From a virus, in the IMG/VR virus record IMGVR_UViG_3300042981_000019, positions 1 through 25,180 of that record: a DNA stretch of 25,180 bases. One strand, 5' to 3'. The translations under genes and the position numbers were made by a program. Below the pieces are notes generated by a model, which saw only the letters and a list, made by a program, of their open reading frames with translations, made no database searches and was not told where the DNA came from. Of this stretch, positions 7,615 through 24,342 are shown in pieces; position 1 is the stretch's first letter, and the number at the start of each line of letters is the position of its first letter.

Positions 7615-7623
7615 GAGACGACC

Positions 7624-9492
7624 GTGCCGCTCACGTACACCGACGTAGCCTCCTGGCTGACACCCGGAACTGGAACCTCCCCGACGCAGTACAAGGAGGT
7701 CACGGTCAGCGCCGGCGTCGGGGACCTCATCGTCGCCTTCGGTATGTCCGACTGGGGGCGTAGCACCACCCAGTCCGTGGTAACCCAGTCCGGCACGGGC
7801 GCGACCAGTGCATGGTCGGTTCTCTACTCGTCCACCTCGACCACCGACTGCGCCTTCATCGCCGCGCGTGCTACCTGCACCACGGCAGGCACGCTCACCA
7901 TCCGGGTCACCGTGGGCACCCACACCAACTCCAACATTGGCGTAGGTGTGTTCGTGATCCCGGCAGCGGAGTGGACCGGCACTCCTACGTGGGCCACGCT
8001 AGGCCCAGGTGACCCAGACGCCCTCGTGACTGTGAGCATGGCAGCCACCTCCACGGTGCTGTACATGGGTGGGGACTGGGATGCAGCCGCACCGGGCTCC
8101 ACGGCCACGCCAGCGGGAGCCACGCTCGACGACAACACCTTCGGCTCCGGCTCCTATGACGTGTTCATCGCCCACTGGACCGGGCAGGCGTCGGGGTCGC
8201 GCAGCTACGGACCTGCTGCACCTGCTGGTGCGACGTGGATCGGCGGGGCGCTGGCCATTCAGGAGGTCGGCGGCCTGCCGGTCGTCAACGTGTCCCTGAC
8301 CGGGCAGCCGATGGGCAGCACCACGGGGATGCCAGCCGGCACCGTGGACGTCACCTCCGAGGGGAACGTCAACCTGACCGGCCAGGCTGTCGGCAGCACC
8401 ACCGGGGCACCGCCCGGCTCGCTGACCCTGACCACGAACATCGAGCAGACCGGCGACTCGGCCGGGTCCACCTCGGGTATGCCGCCCGGGACCTTGACCA
8501 TCACCAGCAACGTCGAGCTGACCGGACAGCCGATGGGCTCGACCACTGGCATGCCGCCGGGCACGGTCACCACCTCGAGCGCCAAGCACGCCTCGGGCGG
8601 GTCCACTGCCACCGTCACGATCACCTCGAGCGGCGGCGGTGCCAAGGCTACCTCGGGCGGATCCGCCACCGACGTGAGCGTGACCACCTCGAGCGGTGGG
8701 GCCAAGACCGGCGCGGGCGGCTCGGCGGCAGCCGTGGACGTCACGACCAGCGGCGGCGGCACCCGTGCCACGAGCGGCGGCTCGGTGGCCACCGTCGACG
8801 TGAGCTCCACTTCGGGCGGCGTGAAGGCGACCTCTGGTGGGTCGGTCACGTCGGTGAGCGTCAGTGCCAGCGGCGGCGGCCTGGCCTACCGGTTCGGCGG
8901 CTCGACGACGGGCGTGGTCGTGACGGCCACCGGCGGCGGGCACGCCAACGTAGCTGGCCGTGGCGGGTCGACCACGATGGTCCTCGCCACGGCCAGCGGG
9001 GACGGGACCAAGCACGGACGTGGCGGCTCGGTTGCGCAGGTCGAGACCACCGGCAGCGGTGGCGGGTCCAAGTCCACCTCGTCAGGCTCGACCGCTCAGG
9101 TCACCGTCACCGCGACCGGCGGAGGCCACGCCAACCAGTCCGACCAGGGCGGTTCGACTACGACCGTCACGATCACCGCCACCGGCGCCGGGGCCAAGAC
9201 GGGCCGGGGTGGGTCGGTCGCCCTCGTGCAGGTGCTGGCCAGCGGTGGCGGGTTCAACCCCGGCAACCCGGCCGGAGGCTCTACTGCACTGGTCGAGGTC
9301 ACCGGGAGCGGGGCCGGTACCAAGCACGCCTACGGTGGGTCGACGGCCACGGTGTCGGTGGTCGCCAGTGGTGGCGGGCGGAACCCGGCGCGGCTGCTGG
9401 TCACCCCGGCATGGAGGACCACCAAGGTGCCTGCGCCACGCCGCACCTATGTACCGAGCAGGAGGCGAGTCATCGTCGTGGACAAGGAGTGA
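7624..9492 (+). CDS. Long repeat-containing tail fibre-type protein (622 aa)
   Basis: Three parts are visible. Residues 1-~220 are a beta-rich globular head. Residues 222-321 hold four 24-26-residue repeats around LTGQPMGSTTGMPPGTV. Residues 322-587 are 13 uninterrupted repeats of 20 or 22 residues built on GGSTATVTVTASGGGxK. A basic tail with PAPRRTYVPSRRRVIVVDKE follows. Such short Gly/Ser/Thr repeats alternating with Val-rich strands suggest an elongated beta-structured shaft, as in fibres. The start is GTG 7624 with AGGAG just upstream. The following gene encodes a fibre-tail adaptor-like protein, which supports the fibre assignment. The repeats differ in sequence but keep exact length, so selection acts on geometry. 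No enzymatic motif is seen. Confidence 0.7.
   Translation: MPLTYTDVASWLTPGTGTSPTQYKEVTVSAGVGDLIVAFGMSDWGRSTTQSVVTQSGTGATSAWSVLYSSTSTTDCAFIAARATCTTAGTLTIRVTVGTHTNSNIGVGVFVIPAAEWTGTPTWATLGPGDPDALVTVSMAATSTVLYMGGDWDAAAPGSTATPAGATLDDNTFGSGSYDVFIAHWTGQASGSRSYGPAAPAGATWIGGALAIQEVGGLPVVNVSLTGQPMGSTTGMPAGTVDVTSEGNVNLTGQAVGSTTGAPPGSLTLTTNIEQTGDSAGSTSGMPPGTLTITSNVELTGQPMGSTTGMPPGTVTTSSAKHASGGSTATVTITSSGGGAKATSGGSATDVSVTTSSGGAKTGAGGSAAAVDVTTSGGGTRATSGGSVATVDVSSTSGGVKATSGGSVTSVSVSASGGGLAYRFGGSTTGVVVTATGGGHANVAGRGGSTTMVLATASGDGTKHGRGGSVAQVETTGSGGGSKSTSSGSTAQVTVTATGGGHANQSDQGGSTTTVTITATGAGAKTGRGGSVALVQVLASGGGFNPGNPAGGSTALVEVTGSGAGTKHAYGGSTATVSVVASGGGRNPARLLVTPAWRTTKVPAPRRTYVPSRRRVIVVDKE
8287..8586 (+). repeat. 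Four 24-26-codon tandem repeats (TGQPMGSTTGMPPGT type)
   Basis: Four in-frame units of 26, 24, 24 and 26 codons account exactly for the 100 codons. Core residues T-G-x-x-x-G-S-T-x-G-x-P-x-G are kept. The first and fourth units are nearly identical in the core (GQPMGSTTGMP[A/P]GTV). Confidence 0.85.
8587..9384 (+). repeat. Thirteen 20/22-codon tandem repeats (GGSTATV type)
   Basis: Ten units of 20 codons and three of 22 codons fill the 266 codons with no remainder. Each unit has G-G-S (one S-G-S) at positions 4-6, a hydrophobic strand at about 10-12, and a Gly-rich turn at about 16-18. The 22-codon units are numbers 6, 9 and 11, each with a two-residue extension after the Gly turn. The DNA is diverged, so this is an old, functionally constrained array. 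Confidence 0.9.
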
Positions 9493-9494
9493 GC

Positions 9495-9800
9495 ATGGAC
9501 CTCGAGCGCATCGAGAAGGACCCGAGCGCAACGCTGGACTACGAGTGGGACTGGAGCAGCTGGCTGCGCTCCACCGGTGACACGCTGGCCACCTCGAGCT
9601 GGAGCGTGGCCGGTCCGGACAACTCGCTGGTCGCCATGGACGCGGCCAGCGCCCACCCGCCGTCGCTGCTGCCAAGCATCGCGACGGTGTGGCTGACCGG
9701 TGGCACGCTGGGCGGACGCTACGTCGTGACCAACCACGTGCGCAGCGTTGCCGGGCGCGAGGACGAGTGGAGCCGGGAGTTCCGCATCCTCAACCTGTGA
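9495..9800 (+). CDS. Phage fibre-tail adaptor-like protein (101 aa)
   Basis: The protein reads as one Ig-like beta domain: KDPSATLDYEWDWSSWL, then GDTLATSSWSV, ATVWLTGGTLGGRYVVTNHV, and GREDEWSREFRIL. This arrangement (K-D-P-x-x-x-L-D-Y-x-x-D-W, later L-x-G-G-x-x-G-x-x-Y) is widespread in tailed phages, where such proteins are annotated as fibre-tail adaptor or head-tail structural proteins. AAGGAG lies just upstream of ATG 9495, 2 nt after the fibre stop. It probably joins the preceding fibre to the particle. This closes the fibre cassette. Confidence 0.65.
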   Translation: MDLERIEKDPSATLDYEWDWSSWLRSTGDTLATSSWSVAGPDNSLVAMDAASAHPPSLLPSIATVWLTGGTLGGRYVVTNHVRSVAGREDEWSREFRILNL

Positions 9801-9807
9801 GCACTCA

Positions 9808-9824
9808 GTAGTACGCTCAGTGAC
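9808..9824 (+). promoter_or_regulatory. Putative promoter of the protease-polyprotein gene
   Basis: The sequence GTAGTACGCTCAGTGAC differs at one of 17 positions from the segment at 20781-20797. The -10-like TACGCT is at 9812-9817. It lies 8 nt after the adaptor stop and gives a leader of about 50 nt before ATG 9874. No convincing -35 is seen. Confidence 0.5.
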
Positions 9825-9829
9825 GAACC

Positions 9830-9847
9830 GCTGGCGTAGGGGCCGGG
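9830..9847 (+). repeat. 18-nt leader repeat, copy 1
   Basis: GCTGGCGTAGGGGCCGGG is identical to 14126-14143 in the leader of the major capsid gene. Both copies are downstream of a TACGCT promoter-like motif and 26-27 nt upstream of the ATG, so they probably lie in the 5' untranslated RNA. Confidence 0.7.
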
Positions 9848-9873
9848 TCCACCCGCTTCGAGAGGATCGAACG

Positions 9874-12800
9874 ATGGCACCCAAGACCGCCCAGCACCAG
9901 CACCTGGTGATCGACGAGGACAGCGGGGCCCTGCTCTCCTCCACCACCCTTGTCGCATCTGCTGCGACCCTCGAGGCCGAGACCGAGGAGCCGTGCACCC
10001 CGTGCGCCGAGCGCGCGGCCGAGGCCCAGCGGCTGCGCACGGAGCGCATGACTCGCGAGGGTTTCCGCTCCGAGGCCGCACCCGCACCCGAGGACGGTGA
10101 GCAGACCCTGCCGGCCACGTGGTCGGGCCCGATCGGGGTCGAGGGCGAGCTGACCGGTGACGGCCGCCTGATCCTGCCCGACGCGCTGCGCTGGGACATC
10201 TCCGAGGACTCCCCAGCACCGCTGCGCTTCGTCTCCGCCGATGTGGGCGCGCACCAGGGCGCTCAGGTGGTCGGGCGGATCCTCGGTGTCGAGCGCCGCG
10301 AGGGTGGGCTGATCTGGGGCCACGGCGACTTCGACCTGGACTCCGAGGTCGGCCGGGAGGCCGCCCGCGTCGTCGGCAAGAAGCTGCAGGACGGTGTGAG
10401 CATGGACCTGGACGACGTGGCCTTCGAGGTGCGCGTGGCCGCCGACGCCGTGGCTGCCATGACAGGCGACGGCGAGGGCACCCTGACGCTGGCCGCACCG
10501 GATGAGGACGGGCGCATCTCCATCAAGGAGGTCGCGCCCGACGACGAGGTGATGGTCACCACCGACGCCCGCATCCGCGCGGCGACCATCGTGGCCGTGC
10601 CCGCCTTCGCCAGCGCGCGCATCTCCCTGACCGCCTCCGGCGCGATGCCGGTCACTGACCTGCTCGGCATCACGCTGCCCAAGCGCTGGGCGCTGACCGC
10701 AGCGGCTGCCACCGATGTGTTCGGCATGGGCGCCGGCGAGGTGGGCGAGCTGCTGCTCGGGCAGGCCCTCGAGGACGGGATCGTCTACGAGGCCGGGGTC
10801 CGCGACGACGGCGCGATCATCTTCGACATCGCCACCGACTTCAACTGGGTCGACAAGGTGGGCGGGTTGCCGAAGAAGATCCGCCACATCGCGGACAAGC
10901 TGATGGAGAAGGGCAAGACCGAGGGCCACGCCATCGCCATCGCCGTCAACGCGGTCAAGAAGGGCTGCGCCACCGGAGACCTCAACTTCCCCGGCGTGCA
11001 GGACATGAACCCGGGCAGCCGGGCCGAGTACTGCGCCGCCGCTGCCGAGTGGGAGGCGAAGAAGAAGGCAGCCAAGGCTGCCGGTGCCACCACGGAGACG
11101 CTTGCCGATACCGCGACCATGGACGCACCAGCGGGAGTCGCTGCGCCCGCTGGTGCTCCCGCGCAGGGCGTGCCGGTCGCCGCGGGTGGTCTGCACCTGC
11201 CGAGCGAGTCCAGCCAGAAGCGGCCCGACACCTACCGCGAGGTCTCCGACGCCGAGCGCGAGCGGCTGGCCAAGGAGGGCAAGGCGATGCCGGACGGCTC
11301 ATTCCCGGTGGCCGACGTCGACGACCTGAAGAACGCGGTGCAGGCAGCCGGGCGCGCCAAGAACCCCAAGGACGTGCACGCCTTCCTGAAGAAGCGCGCC
11401 AAGGAGCTGGACGCCTCAGACCTGATCCCGGGCGACTGGGCTGCGCTGGTGGCCAGCGCAGGCCTGCTGCCGTTCTCCTACAACCCCGACCAGTGGCGCA
11501 ACCCCGACGACGGCAAGTGGATCGACATGCCGGACGTGGCGCTGCACAAGGTGCTGGACGCCATCGGCCCCACCTTCGGGAACGAGGAGGGCACCAACGC
11601 GGTGCAGATCGCGCAGATCGCGGCGGACAACTTCAACACCTCGAAGGAGGCCAAGAAGGACACCGGTCCGATCAGGGCAGCTCTTGGCGGGCTGGAGGTC
11701 GCCTTCGGAGGTCAGGACGAGGATCTCGACCAGGACATCGCCAAGGCGAATGATGCTGTCTCCGCCTACGAGACCGGCTACATCCCCGAGGAGCAGACTG
11801 ACCTGACCAATCCCGAGGAGACCGACATCGGTGCCGACGACGCGCCCGACGCCACCCTCGAGGAGCCTGCCCCCTCCGCGCCCGACGCGCCAGAGGGATG
11901 GACTCAGGAGGCCGATGGCATCGTGGACGGTGACGGCTGGATGGTGTCCAACGAGCATGAGGGTGGCTTCGACCTCTACGACCCGGCCGGCCTGCGCATC
12001 GAGAGCTACCCGACGCAGGAGGAGGCCATCGCTGGACGGGATGCCCACAAGGAGGGTGGTACGCGGGGAACCGACACCAGCGGCGGCGGCTCGAGCGCGG
12101 GCGAGGACGACTCATCGACGACACCTGCCCCGGACACCACGATGCCTGCTGCACCTGATGCGGGGGCTACCGACGAGGATGTCCAGAACCTCGTGAGCGA
12201 CCTCGCGGACCGTGGCATCGAGATCACGCCCGAGCAGGCTGCGGATGCCATCGAGTACTACGGCGACCCGGATGCTGCTCTGGAGGAGATCCTCACCAAC
12301 GGCGGCTACGGGGCGGTGACGGCTGCTGCGCCGCCGGTCGACCCTGACCTGCCGCCGGCACGCTTCTTCTCCAACCCGCAGCTCAAGGGCCCGACGCCGC
12401 TGACCGTGACCGACGAGGGCCACGTCTACGGCCACCTCGCCACCTGGGACACCTGCCACCTGAGCCACACCCAGCTCGGGCGCTGTGTGAAGCCGCCGCG
12501 CTCCCGCTCCGGCTACGCCTACTTTCTGACCGGGGCCGTCCGCACCGCTGAAGGCTCCGAAGTGGCGGTCGGCCAGATCACCCTGGACACCCGGCACGCG
12601 GACGAGGCGTTCAACGCGAAGACGACGCTGGCGCACTACGACCACACCGGGCTGGCCGCCGCCGACGTGAGCGTGGGCGACGACGCCTACGGGATCTGGT
12701 TCTCCGGTGCGCTGCGTCCCGGCCTGACGCCCAAGGACGTGCGGGTGCTGCGCGCCTCCCCGATGAGCGGGGACTGGCGGCGGATGGGCACCGGCATGGA

Positions 12801-13131
12801 GCTGGTCGCCGCGCTGTGCGTCAACGTGCAGGGCTACCCGATCCCGCGTCCTCGCGGGCTGGTCGCCTCCGGTGCGATGCAGACCCTCGTGGCGGCCGGG
12901 ATGCTGGCCCCGCGCAAGGTGATCAAGCCGGGCACGCCTGGCGCGCTGTCCACCGACGACCTGCGCTACCTCAAGCGGCTGGCCGCTCGGGAGCGGGCCG
13001 AGGAGGCGGCGTCCAAGGTCGACCTGCTCGACCGCGCGGCGGTGCTGTCGCGCAAGCTGCGGGCCAGCGAGATGGCTGCTCGCGTAGCCTCGATGTCGAC
13101 GACCACCATCACGGATGAGGGAGGGCAGTAG
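9874..13131 (+). CDS. S78-type prohead protease in a 1,085-aa multidomain protein
   Basis: Residues ~85-260 match the HK97-type prohead protease (peptidase S78): H127 in ADVGAHQGAQVVGRI and S176 in GVSMDLDD, 49 residues apart as for His65 and Ser114 of HK97 gp4. Residues ~330-395 (KKIRHIADKLMEKGKTEGHA, then GSRAEYCAAAAEWE) and ~450-530 (PDGSFPVADVDDL ... GRAKNP, DUF6582-like) are modules often found with actinophage proteases. An acidic linker follows, with a UBA-like helical patch at ~765-808. Residues ~827-990 form a second conserved domain (GPTPLTV, VYGHLATWDTCH, AHYDHTG with H921, SPMSGDWR with S965). The end is coiled. Expected role: cleaving the scaffold part of the capsid protein during maturation, and possibly acting as scaffold itself. 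ATG 9874 has AGAGGA 7 nt upstream. Confidence 0.8.
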   Translation: MAPKTAQHQHLVIDEDSGALLSSTTLVASAATLEAETEEPCTPCAERAAEAQRLRTERMTREGFRSEAAPAPEDGEQTLPATWSGPIGVEGELTGDGRLILPDALRWDISEDSPAPLRFVSADVGAHQGAQVVGRILGVERREGGLIWGHGDFDLDSEVGREAARVVGKKLQDGVSMDLDDVAFEVRVAADAVAAMTGDGEGTLTLAAPDEDGRISIKEVAPDDEVMVTTDARIRAATIVAVPAFASARISLTASGAMPVTDLLGITLPKRWALTAAAATDVFGMGAGEVGELLLGQALEDGIVYEAGVRDDGAIIFDIATDFNWVDKVGGLPKKIRHIADKLMEKGKTEGHAIAIAVNAVKKGCATGDLNFPGVQDMNPGSRAEYCAAAAEWEAKKKAAKAAGATTETLADTATMDAPAGVAAPAGAPAQGVPVAAGGLHLPSESSQKRPDTYREVSDAERERLAKEGKAMPDGSFPVADVDDLKNAVQAAGRAKNPKDVHAFLKKRAKELDASDLIPGDWAALVASAGLLPFSYNPDQWRNPDDGKWIDMPDVALHKVLDAIGPTFGNEEGTNAVQIAQIAADNFNTSKEAKKDTGPIRAALGGLEVAFGGQDEDLDQDIAKANDAVSAYETGYIPEEQTDLTNPEETDIGADDAPDATLEEPAPSAPDAPEGWTQEADGIVDGDGWMVSNEHEGGFDLYDPAGLRIESYPTQEEAIAGRDAHKEGGTRGTDTSGGGSSAGEDDSSTTPAPDTTMPAAPDAGATDEDVQNLVSDLADRGIEITPEQAADAIEYYGDPDAALEEILTNGGYGAVTAAAPPVDPDLPPARFFSNPQLKGPTPLTVTDEGHVYGHLATWDTCHLSHTQLGRCVKPPRSRSGYAYFLTGAVRTAEGSEVAVGQITLDTRHADEAFNAKTTLAHYDHTGLAAADVSVGDDAYGIWFSGALRPGLTPKDVRVLRASPMSGDWRRMGTGMELVAALCVNVQGYPIPRPRGLVASGAMQTLVAAGMLAPRKVIKPGTPGALSTDDLRYLKRLAARERAEEAASKVDLLDRAAVLSRKLRASEMAARVASMSTTTITDEGGQ

Positions 13132-13134
13132 CCC

Positions 13135-13401
13135 ATGGGATGCAACTGCAACAAGCGCCGGGCCACCGCGAAGGCGGCGGCGAACGACGCCAAGACGGCG
13201 CAGCCACCCACCCGAGGAGGCAACCCGGGCGCGGGCACCTCGGGCAAGGCGGCCACCAGCGCGGTCCGCTCGGGGACCGGTGCGACCCAGACGTTCGCCT
13301 ACGAGCCGCCCACCGGTCGCACGCAGACTTACGGGTCACGGCTCGAGGCGGAGGCCGCTCGGGTGCGTGCCGGCTACGTCGGGCGGGTCCGGCCGCTGTA
13401 G
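13135..13401 (+). CDS. Small MGCNC-type protein (88 aa)
   Basis: The protein starts MGCNCNKRR, has an Ala/Gly/Thr-rich low-complexity middle and ends with TFAYEPPTGRTQTYGSRLEAEAARVRAG. Small phage proteins with an MGCNC start and a C-terminal F/Y-G-S-x-L-E-A segment are common next to capsid genes in actinophages; their function is not known to me. GGAGGG lies about 10 nt upstream of ATG 13135, and the protease stop is 3 nt upstream, so the two are co-translated. The N-terminal Cys pair could bind metal or form a disulphide. Confidence 0.65.
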   Translation: MGCNCNKRRATAKAAANDAKTAQPPTRGGNPGAGTSGKAATSAVRSGTGATQTFAYEPPTGRTQTYGSRLEAEAARVRAGYVGRVRPL

Positions 13402-14170: not shown

Positions 14171-15979
14171 ATGGGTCAGAACCACAGCCAGCCCACCTAC
14201 CTCGACAAGTCCGTGGTCTACACCACGCAGTACGCCGAGGCCACCGAGGGTGACGACGAGGACCTGGTGATCCCTCAGGACCTCACCGAGGTCCCCGACT
14301 CCGACCTCGCCGGTCTGCACAGCTCGGCGGTCGAGGCGTTCAACGCCCTCTACGACGGCGGCAACGCCCAGCTCTCCGAGGACGACCTCAACGCCCTGTC
14401 GGTGCTCACCGAGGGCATCGAGCGCGTGCAGGCCGAGCTCGACTCCCGCAAGGGCAAGGCAGACGAGCGCGCACAGGCCGCGACCGAGCTGGCCGCCCGT
14501 GCCGGCCTCAAGGGCGAGGAGAAGCCCGAGACCGACGCGGCACCCGAGGGTGACGCGGCAGCCGCCGAGACCAGCGGTGAGCAGACGCTCGCCACCGAGA
14601 CCAAGCCCGCCGAGATCCGCGTGAGCCTCGCGGGTCTGCGCAACCGGCAGACGACCGCCTCCACCACCCAGCACTCCGCCGAGGCCGAGGCGGGCGACGG
14701 GCCCAAGACGATGGCCGACATCGTGAAGGCCGCGCCGGAGTTCGCCGGCTTCAAGGCCGGCCAGGGCCTCGACTGGTCCGCGATCGGTCGTGGGCTGGAC
14801 CGCCGGTTCGGCTCTTTCAACCGCAGCCAGTACCAGCAGGCCCACGACTCCGGCCGTGCGCTGCGCCAGCAGGTCGGCTTCGCGGTCATCGAGAAGCCCT
14901 TTGCGCCGGACATGGTGCTCAAGAGCAACGACCCGATCCACATCGACGAGCTGCTCCAGCGCGCCGCCAAGGAGTCCCGTCTGCCGGGCAACTCCCTCGT
15001 GGCCGCCGGTGGCTGGTGCGCACCGAGCGAGACCATCTACGACCTGTGCGAGCTGGAGAGCCGCGACGGTCTGCTCTCGGTGCCGGAGATCGGTGTCACT
15101 CGTGGTGGCATCAACTTCACGCCCGGCCCGGACTTCAAGGACATCTTCGCCAACGTGGGCTTCGGCTACACCGAGGCCGAGGACATCGCGGGCGACTACG
15201 ACGGCGCAGGCGGCGGCTCCAAGCCGTGCTACGTCGTGGACTGCCCGGACTTCCAGGACGTCCGGCTCGGCTACGACGGCGTGTGCATCAGCGCCGGTCT
15301 GCTTCAGCAGCGTGGCTACCCCGAGGTCATCGCGCGCACCACGCGCGGCGCCCTCGTGGCCCACGACCACAAGGTGGCCGGGAAGGTCATCGCGGCCATC
15401 GCCGCCGGGTCCACCGCCGTGACGATGCCCGCTGCGCAGGTCGGTGCGGTCGCGCCGATCCTGACGGCCATCGAGCTGCAGGCCGAGCACATCCGCTACG
15501 TCAACCGGCTCGGGCGCAACGCCTCCCTCGAGGGCATCTTCCCGTACTGGGTGCGCGGCGCGATCCGCTCCGACCTCTCGCGTCGTCTCGGCGTCGACCT
15601 GCTCGACGTCTCGGACGCGCGGATCGACGGCTGGTTCACCGACCGTGGGCTGGCCCCGCAGTTCGTGTACAACTACCAGGACCTCACTGGGGCGGCCGGC
15701 ACCTTCGTGGCATGGCCGACCACGATGACCTTCCTGATGTACCCGGCGGGCACCTGGGTCAAGGGCGCGGCGGACATCATCACCCTCGACACCGTGTACG
15801 ACTCGGTGAACCTGGGGACCAACGACTTCACCGCACTGTTCTCCGAGGAGGGCTGGCTCGTCGCCAAGCTCTGCAACGACTCCCGCGCGGTGACCGTCAA
15901 CATCTGCCCGGACGGTGCGACCCACGGCGGCGTCTCGATCGACTGCAACGGCGCGGCCGCAGCCACCGCCGACATCTGA
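14171..15979 (+). CDS. Major capsid protein with N-terminal scaffold-like domain (602 aa)
   Basis: Residues 1-~180 are acidic and helical (QLSEDDLNALSVLTEGIERV, a Lys/Glu/Ala-rich coiled coil, then a TTAS-rich stretch), typical of a delta/scaffold segment removed by the prohead protease. The rest has HK97-fold capsid character: a conserved entry near PFAPDMVLKSNDPIHIDELL, GGWCAPSETIYDL, a glycine-rich loop, and a C-terminal region with ADIITLDTVYDSVNLGTNDFTALFSEEGW. All eight cysteines lie in the mature part. The second ATG (14171) is chosen because GAGGAG at 14158-14163 is 7 nt upstream; the earlier ATG at 14156 lacks a site. The gene follows the protease, and a hairpin lies on either side. 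Confidence 0.85.
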   Translation: MGQNHSQPTYLDKSVVYTTQYAEATEGDDEDLVIPQDLTEVPDSDLAGLHSSAVEAFNALYDGGNAQLSEDDLNALSVLTEGIERVQAELDSRKGKADERAQAATELAARAGLKGEEKPETDAAPEGDAAAAETSGEQTLATETKPAEIRVSLAGLRNRQTTASTTQHSAEAEAGDGPKTMADIVKAAPEFAGFKAGQGLDWSAIGRGLDRRFGSFNRSQYQQAHDSGRALRQQVGFAVIEKPFAPDMVLKSNDPIHIDELLQRAAKESRLPGNSLVAAGGWCAPSETIYDLCELESRDGLLSVPEIGVTRGGINFTPGPDFKDIFANVGFGYTEAEDIAGDYDGAGGGSKPCYVVDCPDFQDVRLGYDGVCISAGLLQQRGYPEVIARTTRGALVAHDHKVAGKVIAAIAAGSTAVTMPAAQVGAVAPILTAIELQAEHIRYVNRLGRNASLEGIFPYWVRGAIRSDLSRRLGVDLLDVSDARIDGWFTDRGLAPQFVYNYQDLTGAAGTFVAWPTTMTFLMYPAGTWVKGAADIITLDTVYDSVNLGTNDFTALFSEEGWLVAKLCNDSRAVTVNICPDGATHGGVSIDCNGAAAATADI

Positions 15980-15987
15980 TCGGAGCA

Positions 15988-16027
15988 GGCGGGGACTGGC
16001 CCCACCCTCACGGGACCGGTCCCCGCC
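15988..16027. terminator. 12-bp GC-rich hairpin between the two capsid genes
   Basis: Arms GGCGGGGACTGG (15988-15999) and CCGGTCCCCGCC (16016-16027) pair with one G-U. The loop is 16 nt. No U-run follows. The location, just after the major capsid stop and before the pentamer-like gene, suits partial termination or mRNA 3'-end protection. Confidence 0.6.
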
Positions 16028-16061
16028 GCAGCCACAACCGTTCGGACTCGAGGAGCAGCAG

Positions 16062-17192
16062 ATGGGATTCGCACCGGCACAGGTCGTCGAGGGACCACCT
16101 CGGCTGCCGCTGCCCTTCGGGCTGTTCTCCGTGGCCAGTCTTGCCGAGAGCGCCACGGAGCGCTGGGAGAACGGGGTCACCTGGGAGGCGCTGTCCTGCG
16201 ACCCGGCCGGGATCGTGGTCGGGGACTGCGACGCCCCCGAGGGCTTCCCCAAGGAGTTCCCGGACGGGCAGCCGAGCGGCAAGGCGGCTGCCTTCACCGT
16301 CTACGGGGCCTACAAGTGCGGCTCGCTGGGCCACGCCGACGCGCTGAACCACGGCCAGGCGCAGGCACGCGCGCTGCTGGCCGCCCGCGAGGAGCAGGGT
16401 GCTGAGGCCCGCCTCTGGACCCAGATGGCCCAGGACGTCGACAGCGAGGTCGTCGGCACCGCCGGTGACGACGTGATCGTGGTGCTCGGCACCCTGGAGC
16501 AGTGGATCGCGGACAACTACGGCAGCCTCGGGGTGGTGCACGCCAGCCGCAACGCGGCCACCACGCTGGGCCAGAAGGGGCTGCTGGACGCCCGTGGCGG
16601 GCAGCTGACCACCAAGCTCGGCACGCCCGTAGTGGCCGGTGGTGGCTACCCCGGCACGGGTCGGGCGATCCTCGAGGAGCAGGTGGTCACCATCACCGGA
16701 GCTCCCACCGGGGGCACCTTCACGCTGACCTTCGAGGGCGAGACCACCGCGCCCATCGACTTCGACGCCACGGCCGGTGACGTGCAGGCCGCGCTCGAGG
16801 CGCTCGGCGCCATCGAGCCCGGTGACGTGGAGGCCACCGGTGGACCGCTGCCGGGAGCAGCTGTCACGCTGACCTTCGGCGGCCAGTACGCCGGTGAGGA
16901 CATCCCGCAGGTCACCGCCACGTCCTCGCTGACCGGCGGCACCACGCCCGGTGTCACCCCGTCCACGAGCGTGCAGGGCAGCTTCACCCCGGCGGCGGCC
17001 GGCACCGAGTGGGTCGCCGCGTCCCCGGCGCTGTTCGGCTACCGCAGCCAGGTGTTCGAGGGCAGCGCCCGGTCTGGCGACCTGCTGGACCGGACCAACA
17101 ACACGCTGTACGGAATTGCCGAGCGGAACTACCTGCTCGGCTACGACCCCTGCGGCATCGCGTTTGCCGCCCTCACGTTGGGATGCTGCTGA
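16062..17192 (+). CDS. Second capsid protein, pentamer-like, with Ig-like insert (376 aa)
   Basis: The protein starts GPPRLPLPFGLFSVAS and ends GYRSQVFEGSARSGDLLDRTNNTLYGIAERNYLLGYDPCG. This matches the layout of what actinophage annotations call the capsid pentamer protein: a second capsid subunit encoded right after the hexamer protein. Residues ~210-306 are an inserted beta domain (GTFTLTFEGETTAPIDFDAT, VQAALEALGAIEPGDVEATG, and so on), a module seen in many phage structural proteins and likely displayed on the surface. AGGAG at 16051-16055 precedes the ATG. It ends in a Cys-Cys pair and overlaps the next ATG. If the role is right, it occupies the vertices and is needed in far fewer copies than the major protein. 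Confidence 0.6.
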   Translation: MGFAPAQVVEGPPRLPLPFGLFSVASLAESATERWENGVTWEALSCDPAGIVVGDCDAPEGFPKEFPDGQPSGKAAAFTVYGAYKCGSLGHADALNHGQAQARALLAAREEQGAEARLWTQMAQDVDSEVVGTAGDDVIVVLGTLEQWIADNYGSLGVVHASRNAATTLGQKGLLDARGGQLTTKLGTPVVAGGGYPGTGRAILEEQVVTITGAPTGGTFTLTFEGETTAPIDFDATAGDVQAALEALGAIEPGDVEATGGPLPGAAVTLTFGGQYAGEDIPQVTATSSLTGGTTPGVTPSTSVQGSFTPAAAGTEWVAASPALFGYRSQVFEGSARSGDLLDRTNNTLYGIAERNYLLGYDPCGIAFAALTLGCC

Positions 17193-17566
17193 TGGCCGGT
17201 CCACTGCTCAACGACGGGATCAACGTGCTGGAGGAGACTGCCCAGCCCGTGGCCGAGGAAGGCCAGCCGCTCGACGCGGACGGAAACCCGATCCCCACCC
17301 CGGATGCCGGTTCGGCGGGCGGAGGCGAGGACGATCAGCGCGCGGCGGCGTCCCCCGCGCCCGCCGACCCGGTGAAGGACTACGCCGACCTGCTGGCCAA
17401 GAAGGTGGGCGACGTGAACACCTACCTCGACAAGCACCCGGACGAGGCAGCCGACGTACTGGCAGCCGAGGCCGCGGGCAAGAACCGCAAGGGCATCGTG
17501 GCCGGACCGCACAACACTGAGCCTGCTGGCGATGGGGCCGGGGCAGCATCCACTGAGGAGAGCTGA
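17192..17566 (+). CDS. Acidic hypothetical protein (124 aa)
   Basis: The protein has an N-terminal Pro/Gly/Asp-rich disordered part, then KDYADLLAKKVGDVNTYLDKHPDEAADVLAAEAAGKNRKGI, a helical motif (yL...pdeA..vlaaE.aGknR) common in small actinophage head proteins. No function is known. ATG 17192 overlaps the previous stop (TGATG); an in-frame ATG at 17183 is the alternative. It lies between capsid and major tail genes, where head-tail joining proteins are usually encoded. Confidence 0.6.
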   Translation: MAGPLLNDGINVLEETAQPVAEEGQPLDADGNPIPTPDAGSAGGGEDDQRAAASPAPADPVKDYADLLAKKVGDVNTYLDKHPDEAADVLAAEAAGKNRKGIVAGPHNTEPAGDGAGAASTEES

Positions 17567-17567
17567 C

Positions 17568-18272
17568 ATGACCACCAAGTGCTTCGCCCCGCTGCTCGGC
17601 AAGCGGATCCGCGTCACCGTGCTCGACGAGTGCGGTGCCGTTGGTGCGCCCGCCACCGTGGACGGCTTCCTCGCCACGGACGGCTTCATCTCCGTCCAGC
17701 TGAGCGCGGAGGTCGAGGAGGGCACCGAGATCATCCAGCGCAAGGCGGACGGCTCGCTGTGCGTGAACGAGAAGTTCTCGGACTCCTTCAAGCGGTTCAC
17801 CGTCGAGATCGAGTTCTGCGGCGTCAACCCCTCGCTGCTGGGCATGGTCTCCAACGCCGAGCCCTACATGGACGACGGCGGCACCGACGTCATCGGCTTC
17901 ACCGTCCCCGAGGGCCCGATCGACAAGAAGTTCGCCCTCGAGCTGTGGACCGGGCTGTCCGGCCAGGCCTGCGAGCCGGGTGCGGAGAGCGCCGGTGGCT
18001 ACCTGCTGCTGCCGTTCATCCAGGCCGGTGTGCTCGGTGACATCACCATCAACGGCGAGGACAGCGTGACCTTCTCGCTGACCGGCGCCTACACCAAGGG
18101 CGGCAACCAGTGGGGCGTCGGGCCCTACCTCGTGGTCAACGACGCCACGGCCACTCCTGCGGCCCTGCCGACCGCGCTGGACCCGCTGGACCACCTGCTG
18201 CTCATCGACACCTCGCTGGCACCGCCTCCGAGCGCGTGCGACCCACAGCCGATGCCCGCAGCCATCCCGTAG
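17568..18272 (+). CDS. Major tail (tube) protein (234 aa)
   Basis: The protein is beta-rich, with a pattern typical of siphovirus tail tube proteins: GKRIRVTVLDECGAV, FISVQLSAEVEEGTEI, KFSDSFKRFTVEIEFCGV, then GYLLLPFIQAGVLGDITING and DSVTFSLTGAYTKGGNQWGVGPY. These subunits stack as hexameric rings around the tape measure. GAGGAG 7 nt before the ATG predicts strong translation. A hairpin follows the stop. The Pro/Ala-rich C-terminal tail (~35 residues) is probably flexible. It precedes the head-tail connectors, whereas in many phages the major tail gene follows them. Six cysteines is a high number for this type of protein. Confidence 0.7.
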   Translation: MTTKCFAPLLGKRIRVTVLDECGAVGAPATVDGFLATDGFISVQLSAEVEEGTEIIQRKADGSLCVNEKFSDSFKRFTVEIEFCGVNPSLLGMVSNAEPYMDDGGTDVIGFTVPEGPIDKKFALELWTGLSGQACEPGAESAGGYLLLPFIQAGVLGDITINGEDSVTFSLTGAYTKGGNQWGVGPYLVVNDATATPAALPTALDPLDHLLLIDTSLAPPPSACDPQPMPAAIP

Positions 18273-18273
18273 C

Positions 18274-18312
18274 CACCTCCGCCCGCTTAGGCGGGCACCA
18301 ACCGAGGAGGTG
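18274..18312 (+). promoter_or_regulatory. Hairpin that pairs with the connector-gene ribosome binding site
   Basis: CACCTCC (18274-18280) is complementary to GGAGGTG (18306-18312), which contains the Shine-Dalgarno for ATG 18317. An inner stem GCCCGC/GCGGGC (18281-18286, 18291-18296) with loop TTAG stacks directly on it. The structure starts one base after the major tail stop codon. It could act as a weak terminator, hide the ribosome binding site, or both. Confidence 0.55.
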
Positions 18313-18316
18313 AGCC

Positions 18317-19165
18317 ATGGAGGGACCCTGTAACTGGCCGATCAGCTACAGCGCGTGCGCGGTGGTCGAGGGCGAGAGCCTGCCCGAGCCACTGGCGTCG
18401 ATGAAGGACACCGAGGTCGAGCTGGTCACCTCGATGGCCACCGCCTACCTGTGGAACTGGACCGACCGGCGCTACGGGCTGTGCGAGATCACCCTGCGGC
18501 CGTGCCAGGCCGACTGTGACGGCCGTGCCCCGACGTTCTTCGGTCGTGGGCCGTACCCCGGCCTGCCCGGCGGCGGCGGGGCCACGTGGACCCCGGCGCT
18601 GATCAACGGCTCCTGGTACAACATCGCCTGCGGGACGTGCGGAGCCGCCTGCACCTGCGCCAACGGGCCGGCGTCGCTGGCCCTGCCTGGGCCGGTGGCG
18701 GACGTCGTGGAGGTGCTCGTCGACGGGGCCGTGGTCGACCCGGCGCTGTACGAGGTGCAGAACTCCCGCTACCTCGTGCGCCTCGACGGCTCGAGCTGGC
18801 CGCGCTGCCAGGACATGCTCGCGCCCACCTCCGAGGTCGGCACCTTCTCGGTGACCTACAACCGGGGCGTGGAGGTGCCCGCCGGCGGCCAGATCGCGGC
18901 CGGGGTGCTGGCCCTCGAGCTGGCGAAGGCGTGGTGCAAGGACAACACCTGTGCGCTGCCGCAGCGGATCCAGTCGATCACCCGGCAGGGCGTCACCATA
19001 GCGATGATCGACTCCTTCGAGGACGTGGAGAAGGGGCACACCGGCATCTGGATCATCGACGCGTGGGTCGTCTCGGTGACCAAGCCGAGGGTCGGCGGGA
19101 CCGTGCACAGCGTTGACCTGCGCGGGCCGCGCCACGGGCGGGTCACCACCTGGCGGTCGCCGTGA
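18317..19165 (+). CDS. Cysteine-rich head-tail connector/adaptor (282 aa)
   Basis: Placement after the major tail gene and before terminator- and gp10-like genes, together with a helical N-terminus (LVTSMATAYLWNWTDRRYGL) and a C-terminal helix-plus-beta core (AGVLALELAKAWC, QRIQSITRQGVTIAM, FEDVEKGHTGIWIIDAWV), resembles the head-to-tail adaptor family of actinophages, related to gp6/gp15-type connectors. The middle holds a beta domain (VVEVLVDGAVVDPALYEVQNSRYLV). Twelve cysteines are present, including the cluster ACGTCGAACTC, which could bind metal or form disulphides. GGAGG is upstream but may be hidden in a hairpin. It ends in a GTGA overlap with the next gene. Confidence 0.65.
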   Translation: MEGPCNWPISYSACAVVEGESLPEPLASMKDTEVELVTSMATAYLWNWTDRRYGLCEITLRPCQADCDGRAPTFFGRGPYPGLPGGGGATWTPALINGSWYNIACGTCGAACTCANGPASLALPGPVADVVEVLVDGAVVDPALYEVQNSRYLVRLDGSSWPRCQDMLAPTSEVGTFSVTYNRGVEVPAGGQIAAGVLALELAKAWCKDNTCALPQRIQSITRQGVTIAMIDSFEDVEKGHTGIWIIDAWVVSVTKPRVGGTVHSVDLRGPRHGRVTTWRSP

Positions 19166-19515
19166 GCCTGCCCGACCCGCCGCCGCCGGTCTACGATCCA
19201 TGTGTGGACCAGGTGTGGGATGACACCACGCGCACCGTCACCTGTACCGACACCGATGGGGAGGTGACCTCCACGCGCGACTACGACGACTCCGAGAACC
19301 AGAATGCCGACGCGCTGGCCGCCACCGCCGCCGCGCAGACCACCGAGCGTACGATCCTCGACGCGCTGGAGGCCGCGCTGGCTGACCTACAGGCGATCAT
19401 CGACGACACCAACTCCAACATCAACTCCAACCCCGCCGCCCGGATCAAGACCATCGCCCGGACCTGCCGACGCCTCGTGCGCATCGCCACCCGGGACCTG
19501 AGCGGGACGGACTGA
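19162..19515 (+). CDS. Small hypothetical protein with coiled-coil (117 aa)
   Basis: The protein opens SLPDPPPPVYDPCVDQVWDD, has an acidic short beta region, then an Ala/Glu/Asp helix (DALAATAAAQTTERTILDALEAALADLQAIID) likely to form a coiled coil, and a basic C-terminus. No function is recognised. The GTG start overlaps the connector stop and its own TGA overlaps the next ATG, so it belongs to the neck gene string. It may be a minor neck component or chaperone. Confidence 0.55.
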   Translation: MSLPDPPPPVYDPCVDQVWDDTTRTVTCTDTDGEVTSTRDYDDSENQNADALAATAAAQTTERTILDALEAALADLQAIIDDTNSNINSNPAARIKTIARTCRRLVRIATRDLSGTD

Positions 19516-20030
19516 TGGCCGTCGACCTCGTGACGCCGGTCATGGCTGCGCTGCGGGACAACCTGCGGCGCTACCTGCAGGTCAGTGTCGGCCGGCTCTA
19601 CATCTCGCCGGGGCTGGACGTGGCCTGGGACGACTGCTGCAACGGGCAGGCGTGGGTACGGCTGGTCTCGATGGCACCGTTCTACGGCGACACCCGGCGC
19701 GGGGCGCAGCAGCGGTGCGGACCGGACGGGATGGTGGTCTCGCTGGCCGTGGGCGCGCTGCGCTGCGCCGCCGTGCTGGACGACAACGGCACGCCACCCT
19801 CGGTGACCCAGCTCAACAACGACGCGGCCGCCGTGGGACGCGACGCCGCCGACCTGCTGGCCGCGATCACCTGCTTCGACCCCGAGGCGGTCGGGCTGGG
19901 CAACGTCATCCTCAAGCCGCTGCTGGTCGAGCGCTGGGACCCGCTCGGGCCCGATGGGGTCTGCGTGGGTGGAGAATGGCTGCTGAACACGACAGTGGGT
20001 GCCTGCCCCTGTCCCGACCCACTGGAGTGA
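19515..20030 (+). CDS. Tail terminator-like protein (171 aa)
   Basis: The N-terminal helix (TPVMAALRDNLRRYL), a core with WVRLVSMAPFYGD and MVVSLAVGALRCAAVLDDNGTPPSVTQLNNDAAAVGRDAADLLAAI, and an ending WDPLGPDGVCVGGEWLLNTTV look like the alpha/beta fold of tail-terminator/completion proteins (lambda gpU type), which cap the tube and join tail to head. Family identity is inferred from pattern and position only. It starts at ATG overlapping the previous stop. Eight cysteines are notable, with a Cys-Cys pair and a final CPC. Confidence 0.5.
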   Translation: MAVDLVTPVMAALRDNLRRYLQVSVGRLYISPGLDVAWDDCCNGQAWVRLVSMAPFYGDTRRGAQQRCGPDGMVVSLAVGALRCAAVLDDNGTPPSVTQLNNDAAAVGRDAADLLAAITCFDPEAVGLGNVILKPLLVERWDPLGPDGVCVGGEWLLNTTVGACPCPDPLE

Positions 20031-21561: not shown

Positions 21562-24342
21562 GTGCCCTTCGACAAGGTCGGAGAGGCCGACATCGAGGTC
21601 GGCGCGGACGGCGGCAAGTTCCTCCCCGAGCTGAAGGCGATCACCGACGCCGCCGAGAAGCTGCTGTCCAAGCAGGGCCAGAAGATGGGCGAGGCCCTCT
21701 CCAAGCCGCTCGAGCGCCCGGCCAGCCGGATGGGGCGGCTGTTCCAGGTCATCACCGTCTCGCTGCCGTTCCTGGTCTCCGGCATCTCCTCGCTGGCCGG
21801 GGCGACCTCGGCGCTGGGCGGCTCGCTGCTCAACACGGTCATCGCGGGCGCGTCGTTCATCCCGGTGATTGCCGCACTCGGCCCTGCCCTCGGAGCAGGG
21901 ATCATCGGCGCGCTCGGGCTCAAGGCGGCGATGAGCGCCACCGGCAAGGAGCTCAAGAAGTTCCCGACCGACACTCAGCTGATGGCCAAGGCCGTCAAGG
22001 GGCTGCAGAAGGACTGGATCGGGCTGCGCAACACGATCTCCGGGGCGTTGTTCAAGGGCCTGTCGGACGACGTGTCCCGGCTCGGCTCCACCCTGTTCCC
22101 GGCCCTGCAGGGCGTGCTGGTGACCACCGCCGGGATCCTCAACAAGGTGACCGGCCAGTTCCTGACCTTCCTGAACTCCGCACAGGGCGTCGGGTTGGTC
22201 ACCGGGGCCATGAACGGGCTCAACCGGATCATCTCCATCCTGTCGGCCACCGCTCTGCCTCTGTTCAAGGGGCTGCTGTTCCTGATCGTCGGGCTGACCC
22301 CGAGCGGCGAGCGGTTGGCCAACGCCCTTGCTCGAGGGGCCAAGTCCCTGTCGGACTGGGCGGTCGGGGTGGCCGCCTCGGGCCAGCTCTCCACCTTCAT
22401 GTCCAAGGCGCAGACCACCGCCGGGCGACTGTGGGACATCCTCAAGAACGTCACCAAGTCGTTGTTCAACGTGTTCCAGGCCTCCAGCGGGTCCGGGGAA
22501 ACCCTGCTGGCCGTGCTCCAGCGGGTGACGGGCAAGTTTGCTGAGTTCACCGCGAGCACCGCTGGCAAGGCGTCCATCGCCGCGTGGGCCGGCAAGGGCG
22601 TGCAGGCCCTCGAGCGGATCGGGCAGATCGTCACCACCCTCGCGCCGATGTTCGCGGAGATGGCCAAGCCTGAGCTGTTCAACGCGCTGCTGGCCGTGCT
22701 GCAGTCGACGGCGGACGCCTTCAAGGTGATGGCCCCGGTGGTCAACTCGGCGGTGCGGGCCTTCTCCCAGCTGCTGACCTACGTGGCCCCGCTGCTCGGG
22801 CCGCTGATCGCGGCGGCCGTGGCGTTCCGCTCGCTGCTGGTGATCGGGAAGATCATCACCGTCGTGCTGCGCTTCACCGGCCTGCTGAAGGTCATGCAGA
22901 TCCTGCTGTTCAACATCCGCATCGCCTTCGCGCTGGCGTGGGCCGCTGGGCTCGGGCCGATCATCATCGTGATCGGCGTGATCGCGCTGCTGGTCGCCGC
23001 CTTCGTGGTCCTGTGGAAGAAGTCCGACGCCTTCCGAGGGTTCTGGATCGGGATCTGGAACGCGATCCAGAGCGCAGCGGCGGCCGTGGGCGCCTGGTTC
23101 ACCGGCACCCTGCTGCCGTGGTTCCAGAGCGTGTGGGACTCGATCACGGCCGGGGCGACGGCGCTGTGGACGACCATCTCGGCCGCCTTCTCGGCGGTGG
23201 TCACGGCGGTGACCGGCTTCGTGTCGATGGTGGTCACGGCTGTGGTCGCCTTCGTGGCCCAGGTGACCTCCGTCATGCTGACCATCGTCAACGTGCTCAC
23301 CTACCCGTGGCGCATCGCCATCGCGCTGGTGATCGGCATCGTGCTGGTGTTCTGGAACACGCTCTACCCGATCTTCGCCGCAGGGGTGGCGACCGTCGTT
23401 GGCTACATCACTGGGCTGTGGAACCAGATCGTCGGGATCTTCAACGCGGTGCGCGCCTTCGTCATCGGGGTCTGGAACGCGATCTGGGCTGCCGTGGCGC
23501 CGGTGGTCAACGCCATCGTCGGCGGGGTGAGCGCCGGCTTCCACGCGGTGCAGTCCGTGGTCACCACCGTGATGGGTGCCGTGCGCTCCTTCCTGTCTGC
23601 CGCGTGGGCCTTCATCCGCAACCTCGTGGCCACTGCGACCGGAGCCGTGCGCAACACCGTCTCGGCCGGGTTCCGGGCCCTCGTGGGGCTGGTGTCCGGG
23701 CCGGTGAACCAGGTCCGCTCCACAGTGTCCAACGCCTTCAACGCCGTGGTGCACGCCATCACCGGCGCGGTCGGGGCCGCTGGCCGGGCTGCCGCCTCGG
23801 TGGGCCGGGCGATCTACGACGGCGTGTCCAACATCGTGAGCGACATGGTGGGCATCGGCTCGAACATCGTGCATGGGCTGATCAACGGGATCACCGGCAT
23901 GGCCGGCCAGCTGAAGTCGGCCGTGATGGGCTTCATCGACCGCAACGTGCCGGGGCCGGTGCGCAAGCTGCTGCACCTCGGGTCCCCATCCAAGCTGTTC
24001 GAGCAGTTCGGCAAGTGGACCGCGCAGGGGCTGGCGAACGGCCTTGTGGCACAGGCAAACTCGGTGGCCAAGTCCAGCGGGCTGCTGGCCAAGTCGACGA
24101 TCAAGGGCTTCGACGCGACCCTCGGGACGAACCCGGCAGGCATGGGCACGCCGCCCTCCCTCGCGGCCGGTGGGCAGACCCAGACGCTGGTTGGCTCCGG
24201 TGGCGACACCTTCGAGGTCAGCCTCAACGTGAGCATCGACGACCTGGCCAAGATGAGCCAGCTGGCCGACTTCCTCGACATGCTCAAGGACGCGCGGGTC
24301 AACGCCCGCAAGACGGCTAGGAGTGGGACGGTGGCGGCATGA
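21562..24342 (+). CDS. Tape measure protein (926 aa)
   Basis: This is the longest tail gene and follows the chaperones. It starts VPFDKVGEADIEVGADGGKF, has a Lys/Glu helical beginning, and long hydrophobic stretches (residues ~60-115 around TVSLPFLVSGISSLAG, and ~470-490 around IIIVIGVIALLVAAFVVLW) that could cross the membrane during DNA entry. Trp/Ala/Val repeats such as WNAIWAAVAPVVNAIV follow, and the ending VPGPVRKLLHLGSPSKLFEQFGKWTAQGLANGL is a common tape-measure C-terminal motif. No peptidoglycan hydrolase domain is seen. By the usual ~1.5 A per residue rule the tail would be about 140 nm. GTG 21562 is chosen over ATG 21526 because GGGGAGG (21549-21555) is at ideal spacing. No cysteine is present. 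Confidence 0.9.
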   Translation: MPFDKVGEADIEVGADGGKFLPELKAITDAAEKLLSKQGQKMGEALSKPLERPASRMGRLFQVITVSLPFLVSGISSLAGATSALGGSLLNTVIAGASFIPVIAALGPALGAGIIGALGLKAAMSATGKELKKFPTDTQLMAKAVKGLQKDWIGLRNTISGALFKGLSDDVSRLGSTLFPALQGVLVTTAGILNKVTGQFLTFLNSAQGVGLVTGAMNGLNRIISILSATALPLFKGLLFLIVGLTPSGERLANALARGAKSLSDWAVGVAASGQLSTFMSKAQTTAGRLWDILKNVTKSLFNVFQASSGSGETLLAVLQRVTGKFAEFTASTAGKASIAAWAGKGVQALERIGQIVTTLAPMFAEMAKPELFNALLAVLQSTADAFKVMAPVVNSAVRAFSQLLTYVAPLLGPLIAAAVAFRSLLVIGKIITVVLRFTGLLKVMQILLFNIRIAFALAWAAGLGPIIIVIGVIALLVAAFVVLWKKSDAFRGFWIGIWNAIQSAAAAVGAWFTGTLLPWFQSVWDSITAGATALWTTISAAFSAVVTAVTGFVSMVVTAVVAFVAQVTSVMLTIVNVLTYPWRIAIALVIGIVLVFWNTLYPIFAAGVATVVGYITGLWNQIVGIFNAVRAFVIGVWNAIWAAVAPVVNAIVGGVSAGFHAVQSVVTTVMGAVRSFLSAAWAFIRNLVATATGAVRNTVSAGFRALVGLVSGPVNQVRSTVSNAFNAVVHAITGAVGAAGRAAASVGRAIYDGVSNIVSDMVGIGSNIVHGLINGITGMAGQLKSAVMGFIDRNVPGPVRKLLHLGSPSKLFEQFGKWTAQGLANGLVAQANSVAKSSGLLAKSTIKGFDATLGTNPAGMGTPPSLAAGGQTQTLVGSGGDTFEVSLNVSIDDLAKMSQLADFLDMLKDARVNARKTARSGTVAA

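Follow-up and report, generated by a model that had tools for sequence, protein, structure and literature searches.

The cysteines of the capsid and tail tube proteins, and probably the majority of the neck-protein cysteines as well, very likely form structural disulphides in the virion encoded by the window, which is the whole stretch of 25,180 nucleotides analysed from IMG/VR virus record IMGVR_UViG_3300042981_000019 (Table 1). The particle is probably disulphide-stapled, since cysteines come and go among relatives as fixed pairs, which is the pattern that disulphides should leave. In comparisons among these relatives, paired gain and loss shows which cysteines of the capsid and the tail tube go together, and we infer in addition an oxidised state, mostly intrachain bonding, the timing of closure and a gain in robustness. 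The support for disulphides is strong in the capsid and major tail proteins, moderate in the adaptor and terminator-like proteins and partial in the pentamer-like protein. Disulphide-networked virions are known from Milano and 7-7-1, which belong to an unrelated group of Agrobacterium phages.

A cysteine tally over the 22 ORFs of the window gave 40 cysteines in 1664 residues (2.4%) for the pooled capsid, pentamer-like, major tail, adaptor and terminator-like proteins versus 37 in 5648 residues (0.66%) for the remaining 17 ORFs, and an enrichment in the structural proteins is thus present. The neck proteins were the densest (adaptor 4.26%, terminator-like 4.68%). In the first 50,000 bases of the relative FuzzBuster the five counterpart proteins contained 2.11% cysteine and the other 74 complete CDS 0.82%. 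The individual counts of an earlier sequence-only reading were reproduced for every protein it had listed (Table 1), the pentamer-like protein having its six cysteines in 375 residues from start 16065 and in 376 residues from start 16062. The clusters it had named were located at adaptor residues 105-114 (CGTCGAACTC), at terminator-like residues 164-166 (CPC) and, for CC, both at terminator-like residues 41-42 and at the pentamer-like C-terminus (374-375). The cysteine positions, on whose conservation that reading depended, were conserved in the relatives examined. Its contrast with a cysteine-free tape measure is true as a count but ordinary, and carries no weight because the HK97 tape measure is also free of cysteine (0 in 1089 residues). 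Among complete tape measures of relatives 9 of 11 were cysteine-free and the other two carry one each; with the automatic earlier start, which adds upstream residues, the tape measure of the window has 938 residues and one cysteine.

Table 1. Features of the window discussed in the text, with strand and profile matches.
Feature	Position	Strand	Size and cysteines	Match or remark
Small MxCxC protein (MGCNCNKRR...)	13135..13401	+	88 aa	upstream of capsid gene; candidate redox or linking factor
Major capsid protein, HK97 fold	14171..15979	+	602 aa, 8 Cys	phrog_777, E 2.4e-152, residues 34-594
Capsid Cys codons	15017..15946	+	283 at 15017, 293 at 15047, 353 at 15227, 358 at 15242	residue positions converted arithmetically
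Capsid Cys codons, rest		+	372 at 15284, 568 at 15872, 579 at 15905, 592 at 15944	residue positions converted arithmetically
Pentamer-like protein	16065..17192	+	6 Cys	phrog_779 match
Major tail (tube) protein	17568..18272	+	234 aa, 6 Cys	phrog_792, E 9.6e-65
Head-to-tail adaptor	18317..19165	+	282 aa, 12 Cys	phrog_783, E 6.3e-67
Adaptor Cys cluster CGTCGAACTC	18629..18658	+	residues 105-114	low-confidence loop
Terminator-like protein	19515..20030	+	171 aa, 8 Cys	phrog_810, E 1.1e-16
Tape measure protein	21562..24342	+	926 aa, 0 Cys	phrog_58, E 2.8e-71

Pairing was assessed by a paired-change test, not part of the earlier reading, in which cysteine columns were scored across relatives as both or neither versus single, and shared changes were counted on a tree built with the cysteine columns removed. 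Three sets were used, namely a first set, prophage loci and loci chosen by their tail genes, each dereplicated at 95% identity within itself and not across sets, and proteins identical to or nested in earlier ones were removed from the third. The capsid-profile relatives were selected by a pattern containing C283, and the constancy of C283 in those sets is therefore by construction; the sets free of this selection are 20 phage capsids and the tail-chosen loci.

The AF2 model of the capsid protein (pLDDT 81.3) matched HK97 prohead I with Z 15.3 and an rmsd of 3.7 over 247 aligned residues, and 848 phage records matched by tblastn. All eight cysteines lie at residue 283 or later, which bears out the claim that they belong to the mature part, and the N-terminal scaffold-like part is consequently without cysteine. 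Four pairs are predicted from the comparison of relatives: C283-C358, C293-C568, C353-C372 and C579-C592. Summed over the three sets, both cysteines or neither were found in 168 of 168 relatives aligned at both sites for C293-C568, in 169 of 169 for C353-C372 and in 169 of 169 for C283-C358, where C283 is partly constant by sampling, and C579-C592 was broken in 6 of 165. Every tree change was shared for C293-C568 (10/10) and C353-C372 (7/7), and likewise for two further pairs present only in relatives (9/9 and 3/3), while the overlap among 71,144 control residue pairs on the same cysteine-free tree reached a maximum of 0.43. All four pairs were replicated in the prophage loci (62 capsids) and in the tail-chosen loci, 3 of 17 of which had lost C283-C358 as a whole pair. 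Sites without the pair carry ordinary residues, such as I/G, L/G and T/A.

For the tail tube the predicted pairs are C22-C135, C5-C224 and C65-C84. C22-C135 was present as both or neither in all 134 tail proteins aligned at both sites across the three sets, C5-C224 had one break among 129, and C65 occurred without C84 in 11 of 135. The sites of S71 and I118 form a cysteine pair in tail-protein relatives which was never broken. Among representatives below 60% identity an even cysteine count was found in 19 of 19 tail, 57 of 58 pentamer-like and 33 of 37 capsid proteins, with 19 of 31 portals and 15 of 40 other cysteine-bearing FuzzBuster CDS as the comparison; odd counts occurred in 7 of 35 terminator-like proteins and 17 of 49 adaptors. 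The even-count test was strong in the first sets, but three of the five proteins gave a weak result in prophages, where even counts were near random for the pentamer-like (39/63), adaptor (18/32) and terminator-like (11/19) proteins.

Paired change is blind to the distinction between intrachain and interchain bonds. It is a serious, if tentative, possibility that the bonds lie mainly between neighbouring chains and cross-link capsid subunits as in the Agrobacterium phages, since the capsids of Milano and 7-7-1 are described in the available accounts as having both intra- and interchain bonds. In the capsid model the C-terminal tail holds C579 and C592, and poorly predicted loops hold C283 and C358, all of them positions from which a neighbour could be reached, and adaptor C212 is invariant (75/75 in the first set, 34/34 in prophages) yet has no fixed partner. 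However, 19 residues separate C353 from C372 and 13 separate C579 from C592, spacings that fit an intrachain loop staple.

Outside the capsid and tail tube the predicted disulphides are less evenly documented. The adaptor model (pLDDT 80.5) had the T5 portal-complex chain 9ilp_a as its best match (Z 7.8, 162 aligned residues, rmsd 5.5). Its cysteines are at residues 5, 14, 56, 63, 67, 105, 108, 112, 114, 164, 207 and 212, of which C5 and C56 are a likely pair, the other adaptor pairs being less certain. In the terminator-like protein C41-C150 was present as both in 38 of the 40 first-set proteins with either, with 9 of 10 tree changes shared, and in prophages both were found in 21 and C41 alone in 11. 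The pentamer-like pairs C46-C364 and C56-C86 (376-residue numbering) are put forward as candidates only. C46-C364 was complete in 70 of 72 first-set proteins with either cysteine, and prophages had 9 with both and 37 with one. C56-C86 was complete in 75 of 83 in the first set and in 55 prophages, with 5 single, and the tail-chosen loci had 3 with both and 13 with one. The failed replication of the pentamer-like pairs may reflect alignment slips around an insert or a genuine difference. The labels of the hexamer and pentamer proteins derive from Rosebush-type records.

The peak of cysteine density at the neck would also suit a redox switch, in which the bonds shut the particle and their reduction at the cell surface or on entry loosens neck and tube and frees the DNA, and tail contraction in Milano is reported, in the part of the account available, to need bond breakage. 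Siphophages, however, need no sheath contraction and staples within tube chains need not open, and such a switch is judged improbable.

That the cysteines are instead zinc or iron ligands holding domains together is a slightly more doubtful proposal still, and finds its best footing in the adaptor. A C-x(1-3)-C-x(1-7)-C cluster was present in 95 of 105 complete adaptors, together with an RPC motif in 87 (cluster alone 8, RPC alone 5, neither 5), and the combination, also seen in five-cysteine members, resembles a four-cysteine site. The cluster lies in a low-confidence loop of the model (pLDDT below 50 at residues 66-97 and 99-111). The adaptor of Dulem virus 38, on the other hand, keeps the cluster without RPC, and disulphides or a metal site are both possible for this cluster. 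In capsid and tail the pairs come and go singly, with an overlap of at most 0.13 on the tree between different established capsid pairs; because each pair changes independently, four-ligand sets are not passed on as units. The capsid pairs were not tracked by any His, Asp or Glu column (best phi 0.50). Metal sites were rejected for capsid and tail on these two grounds, and of the sequence-only proposal of metal sites or disulphides the second part is retained there, on the strength of paired change. That the richness in cysteine is inherited without function, as the two cysteines each in the capsids of relatives such as Nubi, Kwekel and Sixama might suggest, is barely credible, and the paired changes refute it for capsid and tail, one pair having ten independent joint gains or losses and no single one, with the same pairs recurring in prophages.

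If the cysteines are disulphide-bonded, the structural proteins would be synthesised and put together in the cytosol, a reducing environment, where folding and shell expansion would place thiol pairs side by side. Lysis would be the most likely moment for the particle to enter an oxidising environment, in which the bonds would close and then lock the tail tube and the thin HK97-type shell. Polyoma- and papillomavirus capsids gain disulphides after leaving the cell, and the likeness would be that of a shell assembled in the cytosol and oxidised extracellularly in a final step of maturation, although fold and host are unrelated. By analogy with Milano and 7-7-1, closure after lysis and stabilisation of the virion are plausible.

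Milano and 7-7-1 are Agrobacterium phages with disulphide networks in their virions, and Milano is weakened by DTT, according to the parts of the published accounts available. Its resistance to sonication and to 60 °C has been compared in the presence and absence of DTT. The same sources give structural-protein cysteine contents of 2.1-2.6%, against 2.4% here, with cysteines in capsid, neck and tail and several cysteine pairs in the capsid protein. The trait of specific Cys-Cys pairs is likewise present in the capsid and tail of the window by paired change, with partners that we infer. They differ, so far as those accounts go, in being contractile-tailed and of one Agrobacterium group, whereas the present phage belongs among the non-contractile relatives of Rosebush-type actinobacterial phages, and their bonds have been seen whereas those proposed here are predictions. 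A PDB profile search that included the Milano entries gave one chance-level match for the capsid (E 0.054, a yeast protein) and no match with an E of 1 or less for adaptor and tail, and the adaptor fold compared with Milano neck 1 with a Z of only 5.8. Sequence kinship with the Milano/7-7-1 clade thus does not appear in capsid, adaptor or tail. No solved structure of a close relative was found by single sequence, the only search made for the terminator-like protein, nor by capsid, adaptor and tail profiles.

In the available part of the published account of a 6.7 Å map of Rosebush, a cluster B Mycobacterium phage, cysteine or disulphide is unmentioned and a variant HK97 fold with a decoration protein is proposed. 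The capsid family described here includes Rosebushvirus Lars, which has the same pairs. Open-licence PubMed Central text yielded no papers on disulphides or biochemistry of this phage lineage, which is not proof of absence. The HK97 chainmail is an isopeptide bond, and the HK97 capsid protein has one cysteine. The likeness to HK97 lies in the capsid fold and in covalent reinforcement in general, covalent cross-links being described for its capsid.

If the bonds are real, disulphide reinforcement of virions would not be peculiar to one group of Agrobacterium phages and would be a regular trait of the capsid lineage represented by 848 phage records and 65 bacterial-assembly loci, nearly all actinobacterial by title. 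The four capsid and three tail pairs are predictions at residue level, and they raise the question of when and by what the bonds are made, given assembly inside a reducing cell. Such phages may be damaged by buffers that contain reductants, and paired cysteine change could reveal other such virions from their genomes.

The MxCxC protein might serve the capsid disulphides as a dedicated partner, acting either as a particle-borne catalyst of thiol-disulphide exchange or as a cement peptide joined to the shell through its N-terminal cysteines, which we consider unlikely. The catalyst version fits slightly better than the cement, because the capsid cysteines are already paired among themselves. 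If correct, this phage lineage would supply its own factor for disulphide maturation. Small linking proteins of Milano and 7-7-1 are comparable, being described in the available accounts as having N-terminal cysteine pairs and as bound to a capsid accessory protein. In the relatives the MxCxC protein corresponds to phrog_2069/DUF7196, and 106 of 152 loci, versus 1 of 126 control stretches, had a mini-ORF with an N-terminal CxC in the 1.5 kb preceding the capsid gene.

The sequence-only reading had noted many Cys in the capsid and neck proteins next to a Cys-free tape measure, and a recount of the window ORFs gave the same Cys numbers throughout. The five Cys-rich proteins (capsid, pentamer-like, major tail, head-to-tail adaptor and terminator-like) hold 40 Cys in 1664 aa versus 37 in 5648 aa for the 17 remaining window ORFs. 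Since the HK97 counterparts of the tape measure and the capsid protein hold 0 and 1 Cys, respectively, a Cys-poor tape measure is usual and it is the Cys-rich capsid that is unusual. The window, a whole virus contig of 25,180 bases, has a G+C content of 70% and the gene order portal, MuF-like, large head protease, mini-protein, capsid, pentamer-like, major tail, adaptor, terminator-like, HK97-gp10-like and tape measure. Matches to the capsid protein occur in 848 phage records, with hosts chiefly Mycobacterium, Gordonia and Microbacterium, and matches to the adaptor in 828; the same gene region in 21 named phages (L004-L024) served as comparison loci.

Cys columns of the capsid protein go pairwise, and 16 columns hold 623 of the 668 Cys in 91 proteins cut at 95% identity. 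Four pairs are present in the window and three only in relatives, where they are always complete (window positions 329-354, 7/7; 332-369, 13/13; 511-572, 6/6). Relatives aligned at both sites were counted in three sets of 90, 62 and 17 sequences, the window excluded. Both Cys were found in 85 and neither in 83 for C293-C568, in 141 and 28 for C353-C372, and in 166 and 3 for C283-C358, never one alone, the constancy of C283 being by construction in the sets picked by capsid profile. C579-C592 had 97 with both, 62 with neither and 6 with a single Cys. The 62 capsid proteins from 65 prophage-type loci in genome assemblies showed the four pairs without any break. No pair was broken in the 17 further capsid proteins fetched via the tail gene, and thus not chosen by any capsid residue, and in three of these both Cys of C283-C358 were lost together.

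Kinship was controlled for with a tree built per alignment without the Cys columns, changes being assigned to branches by parsimony. Both Cys changed jointly and in the same direction on all 10 branches with change for C293-C568 and on all 7 for C353-C372, and so did the relatives' pairs 332-369 and 511-572 on all 9 and all 3 of theirs. C579-C592 shared 13 of 21 changes, and overlap peaked at 0.43 in the 71,144 control pairs made of other residues. In the major tail protein (sets of 78, 37 and 20 sequences), C22-C135 was present as both in 125, neither in 9 and single in 0, and the relatives' pair 71-118 in 29, 104 and 0, with fully joint tree changes (3/3 and 7/7). C5-C224 (83, 45 and 1, plus one Cys opposite a gap) and C65-C84 (113, 11 and 11) shared 11/16 (0.69) and 3/6 (0.50) of their changes against a control maximum of 0.60. 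Even Cys numbers prevail in the capsid and major tail proteins, parity being less clean in prophage loci, above all for the pentamer-like, adaptor and terminator-like proteins.

Proteins with an even number of Cys (named phages: window included, complete genes only; larger set: distinct complete proteins)
Protein	Named phages	Larger set	One per 60% identity	Prophage loci
Capsid	21/21	54/59	33/37	33/39
Major tail	22/22	40/40	19/19	12/13
Encoded beside capsid	22/22 (four with zero Cys)
Pentamer-like		81/83	57/58	39/63
Terminator-like	20/21	41/51	28/35	11/19
Adaptor	12/21	51/69	32/49	18/32
Portal (comparison)		19/31
Protease (comparison)		45/63

Metal sites or disulphides stabilising shell and neck had both been proposed. 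A metal site would be expected to pass down its three or four ligands together; the established capsid pairs are instead mutually independent (overlap on the tree at most 0.13), and none of the His, Asp or Glu columns was found to track them (best phi 0.50). The disulphide proposal is very likely correct for the capsid and tail tube, and for the neck it probably holds in part. In the terminator-like protein C41-C150 shared 9 of 10 changes (control maximum 0.78), and C41 stood alone in 11 prophage cases. Adaptor C5-C56 shared 5 of 7 (control maximum 0.50), the remaining adaptor pairs showing no excess of shared changes. An RPC plus C-x(1-3)-C-x(1-7)-C cluster is found in 87 of 105 complete adaptors, five-Cys members included, and C212 is constant (75/75 and 34/34) without a partner; two disulphides with an unpaired or interchain Cys and a four-Cys metal site are both compatible with the adaptor. 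Pentamer-like C46-C364 shared 5 of 8 changes (0.62; control maximum 0.60), and pairs in this protein were not reproduced in one or other of the independent prophage and tail-gene sets.

The capsid model (pLDDT 81.3) has the HK97 fold, its residues 200-578 aligning with HK97 prohead I 76-383 (Z 15.3). The adaptor model (pLDDT 80.5), with the Cys cluster in a very-low-confidence loop, resembles the neck adaptors of T5 (Z 7.8) and a gene transfer agent (Z 7.0), but that of Milano more weakly (Z 5.8). Profile searches with capsid, adaptor and tail families gave no sequence kinship to PDB chains. In Milano and 7-7-1, capsid, neck and tail hold networks of disulphides and small linking proteins are bonded through N-terminal Cys; DTT makes Milano less resistant to sonication and heat. 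For Rosebush, which belongs to the window's lineage, there is a map at 6.7 A; neither cysteine nor disulphide is named in the passages searched on it, and no report of disulphides in this lineage was found in open-licence full text. The pairs would add a new lineage to a known type of virion reinforcement, with predictions at residue level.

The MxCxC mini-protein, conserved among relatives in its N-terminal motif and variable elsewhere, is a possible partner of the capsid disulphides and may act as linker, as catalyst or in neither role. Among the named-phage and window loci with enough sequence, 15 of 16 have a mini-ORF with N-terminal C-x-C in the 1.5 kb before the capsid gene, as do 47 of 74 virus contigs and 44 of 62 prophage loci, versus 1 of 126 control stretches downstream; in BabyDotz and Sixama the gene at this position lacks the C-x-C start. 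The copy of Lars (Rosebushvirus) belongs to phrog_2069 and DUF7196, neither with an assigned function, and the window copy matches phrog_2069 weakly (E 2.7e-4, first 18 residues only).

Coordinates of features in the window
Feature	Position	Remark
Portal gene	967-3333	C-terminal 2H phosphoesterase/RNA-ligase-like domain, residues about 598-746; phrog_2659; PF13563 26.6 bits, just below cut-off of 27
Two ORFs	6496-9492	between MuF-like and protease genes
Head protease	9748-13131	1127-aa numbering
MxCxC mini-protein	13135-13401	upstream of capsid gene
Pentamer-like	16062-17192	domain at residues 205-299

The two ORFs are unusual cargo for a head gene cluster: one has an fn3 match just below cut-off, the remainder being glucanase-like by eye, and the other (622 aa) is mostly Gly/Ser/Thr repeats. 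The pentamer-like domain matches major tail C-terminal domains (phrog_10909, phrog_792) and the tail sheath family phrog_2839, an insert common to head and tail proteins. Two close capsid relatives at 52-55% identity lie on contigs titled Ectothiorhodospiraceae and Syntrophomonadaceae MAGs (L104, L105); mis-binning of actinophage contigs is a likelier explanation than a broader range of hosts. In the head protease, C903-C913 occur together in 69 of 72 relatives, never singly, and look invariant; a prohead-interior protein thus also retains a Cys pair.
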